Shown here: one piece after another, positions 9,671 through 13,131 of the stretch
Layout of the letters: each line of letters opens with the position of its first letter
How positions within the stretch are numbered: the first letter of the stretch is position 1
Origin: Saprospiraceae bacterium
GTDB taxonomy: Bacteria > Bacteroidota > Bacteroidia > Chitinophagales > Saprospiraceae
Length of the DNA stretch: 64,000 nucleotides
Assembly: GCA_020629965.1 (NCBI GenBank)
Contig: JAHDCG010000006.1
Location: forward strand, 1 to 64,000
Direction: 5' to 3'
Notes under the pieces: model-generated
What the model was told of the DNA's origin: nothing
Database searches by the model: none
Seen by the model: the letters and a program-made list of their open reading frames with translations, nothing else
Made by a program: the position numbers and the translations under genes

Positions 9671-9678
9671 TATCTTTG
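9671..9678 (+). promoter_or_regulatory. Promoter -7 element (TATCTTTG) for rpsP
   Basis: TATCTTTGCG matches the Bacteroidota TAnnTTTG element, with a T-rich TTTC block 18 nt upstream. Transcription from here would give a leader of about 290 nt before the S16 start codon. The stretch 9311-9670 upstream holds no gene I can support. Confidence 0.65.
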
Positions 9679-9804
9679 CGCCCGATTTGGAAAAACGAAA
9701 ATTCCGATTTGTCGGCGTGCAGTCTGATTACACATTAGCTTACGCAAAAACGATAATTGCGGTTACATTTGCTTTTTTCAAAGTTCCGTTCTTCTATAAA
9801 TCTT

Positions 9805-9960
9805 GTGATAGAGAAATTTTGAAAAACCAAAATCAATTAACAACTTGGTTTTTCAAAATTTCTGTATCACTTTCATAAGATTTGTTGAAGAACCATAAAC
9901 AAATATTTTAGAAAGCCCGCGGTCGGATATTCCGAGGAAGCGGGTTTTGGTTAAACCAAA
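9805..9960 (+). promoter_or_regulatory. Folded rpsP leader: 26-bp hairpin plus two further stems
   Basis: 9805-9830 pairs with 9845-9870 over 26 bp with one mismatch and a 14-nt loop. Next comes a compound hairpin, AAGCCCGC (9913) / GCGGGTTT (9940), with an inner TCGGA/TCCGA stem. Last is a short palindrome TTTGGTTAAACCAAA at 9946-9960, only 13 nt before the ATG and overlapping the previous 3' arm. The last two are mutually exclusive, as in an attenuator or translational switch. Autoregulation by a ribosomal protein is possible but not shown. Confidence 0.6.
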
Positions 9961-9973
9961 TAAATTTCAGACA

Positions 9974-10552
9974 ATGGCAGTAAAGATTCGTTTACAACGC
10001 AGAGGTCGCAAAAAGGCGCCTTTTTATCACATCGTTATCGCTGACGCCCGCGCGCCTCGTGACGGTGCTTTCATCGAAAAAATCGGAACGTACAATCCGA
10101 TGACCAAGCCGGCAACCATCGACCTCGATAACGATCGCGCATTCCAATGGTTAAAAGACGGTGCTCAACCCACCGACACGGCGCGCGCTATCCTGCGCTT
10201 TAAAGGTGTGATGTACCGCAAACACCTGCAACGCGGGGTGGACAAAGGTGCCCTGACCCAAGAGCAGGCAGACGCAAAATACAACGAGTGGTCGGAAGAG
10301 AAAAACGCTCGCGTACAAGCGCGCTTCGATGCGACGGCAGCAGAGAAAGAAGAATTCCGCAAAATGGTAGCGGGTAAAACTCCTGCGAAAAAAGCAGCAC
10401 CGGTCGAAGAAACCGTAGCCGCACCGACCGCAGAAGCTACCGAAGAAGCAGCTCCCGCCGAGCCGGAAAGCGAAACTTCCGCACTCGACGCGGCAGTAGA
10501 GCAGGCAGCCGTAGAAGCTGACCCGAAGGCTGAGGAGGAGAAAGAGGCTTAG
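9974..10552 (+). CDS. rpsP: 30S ribosomal protein S16
   Basis: 192 residues from ATG at 9974, which gives the invariant start [20 protein letters not shown]. The S16 core occupies roughly residues 1-85 ([17 protein letters not shown]). A long tail rich in Ala, Glu and Pro follows to the end; such acidic extensions are usual for Bacteroidota S16, which are about twice the length of Escherichia coli S16. In many bacteria rpsP is followed by rimM and trmD. Here a terminator comes directly after it, so it is monocistronic. The upstream leader is strongly folded (see 9805-9960). Confidence 0.97.
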
Positions 10553-10706: not shown

Positions 10707-11777
10707 TTAAAAGTCACCGTCGCTCAAACCCAAACCCGGCGCATCCGTCGGCTCCAGCCATCCGTTTTCGAGCGTAAATAACTTCCCGGCAAAGGGGTCG
10801 TTGATAAAATCCAAATGCCCGTCCAAGTCTGCAAACTGAATGTTTAAGCGGCTGAGCGCAAAGTGAATGCCCGCCGAAATGCCCAAAGCACATTCGTCGA
10901 TGCAGCCAATCATCACCTCTTTGCGGGCGGCTTTGGCAACGGAGTTGATGTGCATTCCGACCTGAATACCGCCGACTTTTTGCAGTTTGATATTCACCAT
11001 GTCCACCTTTTCGTGGCGCACGAGACGGAAGGTATCGGTCAGGGTTTTCAGACTCTCGTCCGCCATGACGGGGATGAGCGTTTCCTCCGCTACCGCCTGA
11101 TAATTTTCTTCTTTTAAAATGTGCATCGGCTGCTCGAAAATCTGAATATCCGCCTTTTCGGTTGCGGTCGCAAACTGTATCGCCTGCCCCGCCGTGTAGC
11201 CCTGATTGCCGTCGAAACGTAAAATGACATCGGGAAAACGCTCTTTCACTTTCAGCATTCGCTCGATGTCCGCCTCCAAATTCAAGCCGCCTTTGATTTT
11301 GATAATGCCGAAACCCGCCGCGACAAATTCCTCCGCTTCCGCCATTGTTTCCGCCAAATCACAAATCCCGATGGTAATACTCGTCGCAATTTTGTGTCGA
11401 TAGCCGCCCAAAAATTTATACAAAGGCACATCCGCTTTTTTAGAGACCAAATCGAAAATCGCCAAATCGACCATGGCCCGCGCCGAGGATTTGCCCGCCA
11501 AGAGCAAGGTTAAATCTTCCGCAATTTCCGCATAACCAAACGGGTCTTTCCCGAGCAAATACGGCTCGATGACCTCCGTAATCGCCGCTGCCACCGCCTC
11601 GGGGGTCTCGCCCGTCACAGGCACATCGGGCGCCGCACAGCCGTAGCCGACTAAGCCGATGTCCGTTTCCAATTTCAAAATAAAATTGACGGCAAAAGAC
11701 ACGGTTTCGTAAGCGATAACGTAGGGTTTGCGGAGTTTTAAATCCAAACGCTCGTAAGTGACGCGGGTTATTTTCAT
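10707..11777 (-). CDS. Enolase-superfamily epimerase (dipeptide epimerase / N-acetyl-D-glutamate racemase-like)
   Basis: 356 residues, the usual length for the L-Ala-D/L-Glu epimerase group of the muconate-lactonising subgroup. Visible catalytic set: K160-I-K162 (KxK acid/base), metal ligands D189 (FDGNQGY), E215 (FEQP) and D240 (ADES), the second base in K264-L-Q-K-V-G-G, and the DLDGHLD motif near 318. Such enzymes remove and return a proton alpha to a carboxylate. Family members act on dipeptides from murein recycling. The DgcA branch, encoded next to DgcN, racemises N-acetyl-D-glutamate. The DUF1611 neighbour favours the DgcA-like role here. Substrate is not proven. Confidence 0.85.
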   Translation of the reverse strand: MKITRVTYERLDLKLRKPYVIAYETVSFAVNFILKLETDIGLVGYGCAAPDVPVTGETPEAVAAAITEVIEPYLLGKDPFGYAEIAEDLTLLLAGKSSARAMVDLAIFDLVSKKADVPLYKFLGGYRHKIATSITIGICDLAETMAEAEEFVAAGFGIIKIKGGLNLEADIERMLKVKERFPDVILRFDGNQGYTAGQAIQFATATEKADIQIFEQPMHILKEENYQAVAEETLIPVMADESLKTLTDTFRLVRHEKVDMVNIKLQKVGGIQVGMHINSVAKAARKEVMIGCIDECALGISAGIHFALSRLNIQFADLDGHLDFINDPFAGKLFTLENGWLEPTDAPGLGLSDGDF

Positions 11778-11829
11778 GGGGAAAAAGGTTGAGAGGTTGT
11801 GAGGTTGGGTAGTTGTGAGGTTGGGGCGG

Positions 11830-11868
11830 CTTACTCACAGGGTGACTCGAAGTCACCTTTTGAGTAAG
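11830..11868. other. Nested perfect hairpin between epimerase and DUF1611 genes
   Basis: CTTACTCA (11830) pairs with TGAGTAAG (11861), and inside it GGTGACT pairs with AGTCACC. It lies in the 277-bp gap upstream of the epimerase start, together with a GAGGTTGTGAGGTTGG-type repeat (11787-11824). It may process or partially stop the transcript. Confidence 0.5.
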
Positions 11869-11980
11869 ACGTTCCAACCGATTTTTACATAAGCAATCGA
11901 ATAGACACAAGAAAACCGTTTTATGACTCCGCCGGAGGCGGGAGAATGTGAGGCACGAGGTGCAACCTCGCGCTAACTGC

Positions 11981-12046
11981 GATTTTACGAAGTAAAATCC
12001 AAATCATAACCTATCATAATCATCTTAAAAATCAGGTTCAAAAAAA
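11981..12046. repeat. Dispersed repeat with small hairpin, copy 2
   Basis: GATTTTAC-GAA-GTAAAATC hairpin followed by AAATCATAACC and AAAATCAGGTT blocks, as at 250-307. It ends 9 bp before the stop codon of the DUF1611 gene. Confidence 0.6.
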
Positions 12047-12054
12047 TTATATTT

Positions 12055-13131
12055 TTATCCTCTGACCAACTCCCGCAAAACATTTACCAATCCCTCCGCT
12101 CCGTGTTCCAACACATCAAAGCAAGGCAGCCCGGTTTCCTGCGTAATTTTTTCACATTCCGCCGGTATTTCCTCCGTCTTCATGTTTTCGTGATTGAGCG
12201 TGACGGCAACGACTTTTTTGCCGGAAATCGTTTCGATGGCGTTGATTTGCTCGGGCAAAGAATGCAAGCGGTAGCCGGGAAAACCGTCGTATTCCAAGCG
12301 GCGCGGCGCGTGTTGCAGCACCACGTAATCGGGGCGACCCGCCGCCAAAATCTCGAAACCGCCGGGGTACGCGGGGTTCATCAGACTGCCCTGCCCTTCG
12401 ATGACGATGACGTCGGGTTTTTCGTTTTTCCACGCCGATACGACCGCGTGCTCGATTTCGCCCGACACAAAATCATTGATGCAGGAGTCCATAATCATCG
12501 AATATTTCGCGCCCTGCATCCAGCCCGTTTGCCCGGTGCCGATCATTTCCGCCTTCAATCCGTCGTTGCGAAAACCGTGGACAATCATCCAGGCGGTCGT
12601 GCGCTTACCGACGGCGGAGTCGGTGCCGAGTACCGCCAATTTTAAGCATTCGACCTGCTCGATTTCGCCCGTAAAAAAATGCAAATCGTCGCGGTCGGGG
12701 GTCTTGCGCACGTCTTTAATCGTGCAGCCGTTTTCCGCCGCCAAGGCGTTGAGTTCCGCATCTTTGGTCAAAAAATCGTGGAGTCCGCTCGCCACGTTCA
12801 TTTTGCGGCGCAGTGCTTTTTTGATTTCGTCCTTCGCCTCTTTCGGCAAACGACCACCGTCGGGTGCCAAACCGATGACAAAGTTTTTGACTGCGACCTT
12901 TTGCGCGTCCAAAGCTCGCATCGCCGCGTCAAAATCTTTATAAATTATAATGCCGTTGGGGCGATTATCCAAAACTTTGCCCGCGTCATTGCCCGCATAT
13001 TTTGCGTCGATAACGCCGACGACTTCGTAGCGTTCGGTAAAGCGCACCAGGCCGTGCGCGGTTTTACCCTCGGGCGTATTGAATGCACCTTGACAGTAAA
13101 CTATTGCGGTGCCGGAAATTGATTTCTTCAT
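12055..13131 (-). CDS. DUF1611 P-loop protein, DgcN-like (D-glutamate N-acetyltransferase family)
   Basis: 358 residues. An N-terminal Rossmann-like part (ANY-type GVIDAKYAGNDAGKVL, residues 35-55) is followed by a P-loop domain with Walker A near 169-178 (GTDSAVGKRT), a GTGQTGWMQG loop near 198 and a VIVIEGQGSL strand. This matches the DUF1611 family. DgcN of that family, described in marine bacteria, acetylates D-glutamate, and the partner enolase-family racemase DgcA converts the product to the L form. The epimerase downstream fits that pair. It sits 77 bp downstream of the PLP-enzyme gene and 277 bp upstream of the epimerase. DgcN activity is inferred from family and context. Confidence 0.8.
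   Translation of the reverse strand: MKKSISGTAIVYCQGAFNTPEGKTAHGLVRFTERYEVVGVIDAKYAGNDAGKVLDNRPNGIIIYKDFDAAMRALDAQKVAVKNFVIGLAPDGGRLPKEAKDEIKKALRRKMNVASGLHDFLTKDAELNALAAENGCTIKDVRKTPDRDDLHFFTGEIEQVECLKLAVLGTDSAVGKRTTAWMIVHGFRNDGLKAEMIGTGQTGWMQGAKYSMIMDSCINDFVSGEIEHAVVSAWKNEKPDVIVIEGQGSLMNPAYPGGFEILAAGRPDYVVLQHAPRRLEYDGFPGYRLHSLPEQINAIETISGKKVVAVTLNHENMKTEEIPAECEKITQETGLPCFDVLEHGAEGLVNVLRELVRG

Follow-up and report, generated by a model that had tools for sequence, protein, structure and literature searches.

A covarying leader beside the rpsP start codon in Saprospiraceae, a candidate S16 autoregulatory element, and a dispersed hairpin repeat upstream of it

The DNA analysed, hereafter the window, is a stretch of 64,000 nucleotides from a Saprospiraceae bacterium. 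It carries rpsP, encoding ribosomal protein S16, at 9974–10552 on the plus strand (Pfam PF00886, E 2.2e-26), with its AUG at 9974; the upstream features described below lie on the same strand. An earlier note on this DNA was right in that rimM and trmD do not adjoin the gene, which is flanked by an open reading frame without Pfam match and by an MR_MLE enzyme. A crude rimM pattern occurred downstream of rpsP in 1 of 75 family loci, versus 13 of 33 other Bacteroidia loci. The MR_MLE (enolase-superfamily) enzyme adjoins a DUF1611 protein downstream of rpsP (10707–13131, minus strand), a recurrent gene pairing.

Upstream of rpsP, the word TATCTTTG at 9671–9678 fits TAnnTTTG, which we take to be the −7 box of the Bacteroidota type, and the same word is found directly before the leader in relatives. 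A possible second promoter box, TACATTTG at 9764–9771, is also present in the leader of the congener. The earlier note had described a 26-bp hairpin, a compound stem and a short palindrome sharing bases with the latter between the promoter and the start codon, and all three structures were recovered at these places. At −102.1 kcal/mol, the whole stretch 9671–9985 (315 nt) folds better than each of 100 shuffles (z −8.45). Most of this signal is due to the hairpin at 9788–9894 (z −10.8, 0 of 200 shuffles). The proximal stem region 9905–9985 alone gave a z of −2.98 (2 of 200 shuffles as low), and the fold of the 109 nt at 9679–9787 was not significant (z −1.45, 20 of 200 shuffles as low). The region combines a family-wide rpsP leader with an unrelated dispersed hairpin that makes the leader look larger.

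The conserved leader spans 9906–9976, where it is matched by R1, a covariance model of the proximal rpsP leader, with 62 bits (E 2.7e-9). Its stems P1 and P2 are stacked, P3 is a small hairpin, and P0, next to the AUG, is an A-U closing stem. P1, supported by covariation and RNAalifold, pairs 9915–9920 with 9940–9945, and encloses an internal loop (9921–9922 and 9936–9939) and the P2 hairpin UCGGA/UCCGA (9923–9935); P1/P2 (9915–9945) is the compound stem of the earlier note. P3, GGUU/AACC at 9949–9957, is its short palindrome UUUGGUUAAACCAAA (9946–9960), and base sharing is indeed seen, as the UUU of the palindrome can pair with the AAA at 9912–9914 or with its own AAA. P0 is formed by GAAA (9911–9914) and UUUC (9965–9968), with 5 nt between the latter and the AUG. 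In the window, P1 is followed by UUUU, so that the AAA at 9912–9914 can pair either with this extension of P1 or with the UUU of P0; these are the competing stems of the earlier note. This UUUU is local to the window, most relatives carrying GGGUAUGG or a similar word. P1 and P2 are predicted to be firm, with median pair probabilities of 1.0 and 0.99. P0, which has four pairs in the window, has a probability of 0.18 there, the P0-closed fold lying 0.8 kcal/mol above the optimum; across 47 leaders its median probability is 0.68, and it exceeds 0.5 in 26 of them.

Among 40 relatives, rpsP was identified in 37. Most family members share the same layout upstream of the gene: the TAnnTTTG box, GUUAAAA, a stem with an inner stem, GUAA, the return of the stem, a GGUU..AACC hairpin and UUUUAAC right before the AUG. 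From an alignment of 23 leaders built from sequence alone, RNAalifold yielded P1 and P2 unaided, with compensatory changes in 9 of 9 pairs. P0 and P3 were first proposed by eye, and their pair changes were counted afterwards. Over P0–P3, two-sided changes were found in 17 of 22 pairs of the 23 leaders, and the covariation score was 0.474, versus 0.189 (s.d. 0.018) for shuffled alignments and no more than 0.144 with the partner strand slid. With 47 leaders, in an alignment fitted to the model structure, 20 of 22 pairs covaried, including 5 of 7 in P0, and the score was 0.593, versus 0.206 (s.d. 0.012) when shuffled and at most 0.114 when slid. The compensatory changes that the earlier note had named as support for its reading are therefore abundant in the proximal leader. 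Within the otherwise variable P1, a C-C/G-G step is constant, one pair in 45 and the neighbouring pair in 36 of the 47 leaders; the internal loop likewise retains a 5′-side G in 41 of the 47 and a 3′-side A in 40. From their conservation, these positions are candidate protein contact sites.

In the genome of the window, the rpsP leader is the sole match of R1 with an E-value below 1, the next best having an E of 1.7. Of 150 family genomes, 112 had exactly one match and 38 had none at E 0.001. All 30 loci that were fetched, 7 of which come from genomes used to build R1, precede rpsP (28 by script, two checked separately). Two features of ribosomal protein leaders, a compensatory structure in the 5′ leader and a consistent place upstream of a ribosomal protein gene, are present. 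Of 395 genomes sampled across the phylum, only 3 were matched by R1, and these are Saprospiraceae. At E up to 1, it matched 44 of the 51 nearest relatives versus 1 of 23 more distant rpsP loci; the matches include Saprospira grandis, Aureispira and, weakly (E 0.011), Lewinella cohaerens. The leaders missed by R1, among them those of the 7 near relatives without a match at E 1, look by eye like variants of the same leader. The earlier note had held this leader to be unusual for rpsP. Judging from these comparisons, its proximal part is the usual one within Saprospiraceae, and another S16 leader had already been predicted for Flavobacteria (RF03138; PMC7247131).

A subgroup of ten family leaders differs in that GAGAUNNUAUCUC-like hairpins replace the GGUU/AACC of P3 and the closing stem is shifted.

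The motif TAnnTT[TC]G was found upstream of rpsP in all 75 family loci, and in 71 of them the nearest box precedes the AUG by 76–95 nt. From this spacing, the 5′ end of the mRNA is expected near the 5′ strand of P0. In the four other loci the distance is 37, 102, 164 (congener) and 210 nt (window). Only the window, where it occupies 9679–9905, and the congener have a long extension before the leader among the 75 loci; that of the congener is similar in length and mostly different in sequence. The leader length of 290 nt is a peculiarity of the genus.

What was described as a 26-bp hairpin is a core of 19 + 6 bp, and 41 pairs form at 9788–9894 once a 6-nt bulge on the 3′ arm is allowed. A DNA search of the same genome revealed 8 further places resembling this segment, after the window itself, its other strand and one match limited to the query's promoter end were subtracted from 11 matches. 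Of 13 genomes searched with a second repeat query, 2 gave matches, and these two belong to this genus. With a covariance model made from 18 copies, there were 22 matches in the genome of the window and 95 in the congener, numbers in which a palindrome tends to be counted once per strand; in the other 36 genomes, matches were confined to 4 and were weak and scattered. The repeat is about 107 bp long with a conserved bulge of 6–7 nt on the 3′ arm (copies in L187–L212 and L251–L302), and its arms covary between copies in 23 of 41 pairs. The rpsP leader of the congener contains no copy. Because the hairpin is dispersed in the genus and absent from this leader, it is a repeat copy, presumably acquired later, and no part of the conserved leader. 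The single 290-nt architecture proposed in the earlier note does not hold, since its strongest hairpin is a dispersed repeat and 9679–9787 is not significantly folded.

In two copies of the congener, the outer 5′ arm of the repeat is replaced by a small palindrome, CCCGYTRYACGGGACAAGYA, which suggests that a second repeat family may be nested in the first.

Neighbouring genes, taken from simple ORF calls, were assigned for 61 copies of the repeat, 60 of which could be classified: 30 lie between co-directional, 22 between divergent and 4 between convergent genes, and 4 lack a neighbour on one side. A facing start codon is at most 40 nt away in 35 of the 52 copies that have one. Of the 30 co-directional copies, 19 lie closer to the start than to the stop (binomial p 0.20), and a test for uniformity of their relative position gave p 0.007. 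An impression gained from 23 copies, that the repeat always lies in 5′ leaders, was discarded as too strong, as a stop codon lies no more than 40 nt from 8 of the 30 co-directional copies, and 4 copies are convergent. Genes beside the copies include those of S18, a NifU-type scaffold, ribulose-phosphate epimerase and PdxJ; the copies before the S18 and NifU-type genes are among those at most 40 nt from the start. MITEs and REP-type palindromes are short, non-coding, palindromic, dispersed, mostly intergenic and lineage-restricted, and the repeat shares these traits; as in MITEs, 9788–9894 has multiple dispersed copies with inverted-repeat arms and no ORF. It differs from them in its enrichment just before start codons. 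No target-site duplication was seen by eye among 23 copies. The repeat behaves as a mobile palindrome that is tolerated, or used, in leaders.

An S16 leader was predicted in Flavobacteria by Eckert and Weinberg in 2020 and is now Rfam family RF03138 (PMC7247131). Like the Saprospiraceae leader, it lies before rpsP in Bacteroidota and has an internal-loop hairpin enclosed by an A-U closing stem immediately upstream of the AUG, and S16 is the proposed ligand of both. However, it comprises 35 positions instead of 72, and its single 5-bp apical hairpin with a CGAGA loop is not what the Saprospiraceae stems form, as it has neither the P1–internal loop–P2 stack nor P3. Whereas rimM is the usual second gene according to that paper (PMC7247131), it is mostly absent from the Saprospiraceae loci. 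RF03138 matched the leader of the window neither at the gathering score nor at E up to 10, and none of 20 rpsP loci of relatives, with two Bacteroidia loci that it does match serving as positive controls; conversely, R1 did not match these two loci at E up to 1. A search of 150 genomes with RF03138 gave no match and carries no weight, as the controls were silent as well. The whole of Rfam, applied to the window at the gathering score and to the leader at E up to 10, gave sub-threshold matches only, mostly of microRNA models on the hairpin. The two S16 leaders may be distant cousins; in each, an A-U stem closes the structure next to the AUG. The S4 leaders of Bacteroidia and Flavobacteria (PMC7247131) are also lineage-restricted hairpin leaders of the same phylum without rRNA resemblance; they concern another gene and another protein, and the likeness is one of description. 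A literature search lying mostly outside subscription journals found, in the text accessible to it, no S16 or Saprospiraceae leader beyond the Flavobacteria prediction.

In seven other Bacteroidia loci, small hairpins such as GGACGAGUUCC or GGGUUUCGGACCC precede the AUG of rpsP. They escape the S16-Flavobacteria model and are possibly further variants of S16 leaders.

A conserved structure with compensatory changes is present once per genome before rpsP, and in most relatives it directly follows the promoter box. It is best read as a new class of S16 autoregulatory leader acting on translation, with S16 as the presumed ligand: the last 70 nt before the AUG probably form a family-specific S16 leader, in which free S16 would most likely close P0 and block translation. 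We infer the ligand, the direction of control and the blocked step. The stable P1 and P2 would display the constant C-C/G-G step and the purine-rich internal loop; P0, marginal alone and with its 3′ strand just upstream of the AUG, would close upon binding of the ligand, most likely free S16; surplus S16 would thereby keep the 30S subunit off the rpsP mRNA, a negative feedback on translation. In the predicted folds, firm P1/P2 and a marginal P0 that is cheaply forced would have the look of a ligand-closed gate. This mechanism would have no need of the 26-bp hairpin. R1 found nothing inside a 16S gene of the family at E up to 10, a crude test, and no 16S gene was found in the genome of the window; rRNA mimicry therefore lends no support to S16 as ligand. 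The regulated type of leader suggested by the earlier note survives for the proximal 70 nt, which are conserved and have alternative stems by the start codon, and is lost for the 290 nt, which are not one leader.

The great stability of P1/P2, and their proximity to the inferred mRNA 5′ end in most relatives, where a hairpin would protect against decay, would also suit a constitutive element that sets translation or mRNA stability without sensing S16. Such an element is rather unlikely, however, as the covariation of P0 beside the AUG would be superfluous for a mere 5′ cap hairpin, and a general stabiliser should occur elsewhere than before rpsP. It is improbable that two layers of control exist, in which a new S16-sensing translational switch would be accompanied by the hairpin, no longer just a mobile relic, as a spreading RNA operator before dozens of start codons (S16, S18, NifU-type scaffold, ribulose-phosphate epimerase, PdxJ), its pairing being kept by selection and read by one factor, such as RNase III, to form a genus-specific post-transcriptional regulon. 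A riboregulator made of the entire 290 nt, in which the 26-bp hairpin would compete with or gate the proximal stems, has slightly lower odds still: one inferred transcript holds all stems, the extension and leader of the congener fold better than shuffles (z −3.08) and the hairpin arms coevolve, but the hairpin is found at many other genes, does not occur before rpsP in the congener and does not depend on the proximal stem for its folding, and only two of the 75 loci have a comparable extension.

Transcription attenuation with P1/P2 as a terminator is very improbable: the GC-rich stem followed by UUUU exists in the window only, GGGUAUGG replaces the U run in most relatives, and a scan showed no terminator-like site on the plus strand here; this candidate was rejected. 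Control by an upstream ORF (AUGGUUAAACCAAAUAAAUUUUAA, encoding MVKPNKF*) was likewise rejected after a survey of the 75 loci and is the least credible of these explanations. The exact peptide occurs in 4 of the 75, with close variants in several more, but AUGG is missing from the last 50 nt in 37, others encode only MV* or unrelated peptides, and the window has a UUG in frame with rpsP and no stop.

Unlike that of most ribosomal proteins, the control of S16 is nearly unexplored; according to a 2024 review, there is no information on how the operon containing rpsP is regulated (PMC10931766). A covariance model for the S16 leader would annotate most Saprospiraceae genomes. A second, structurally different S16 leader in a related lineage would make it possible to compare cleanly how unrelated RNAs are recognised by the same protein. 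The pair would also bear on how translation is blocked where little use is made of Shine-Dalgarno sequences.
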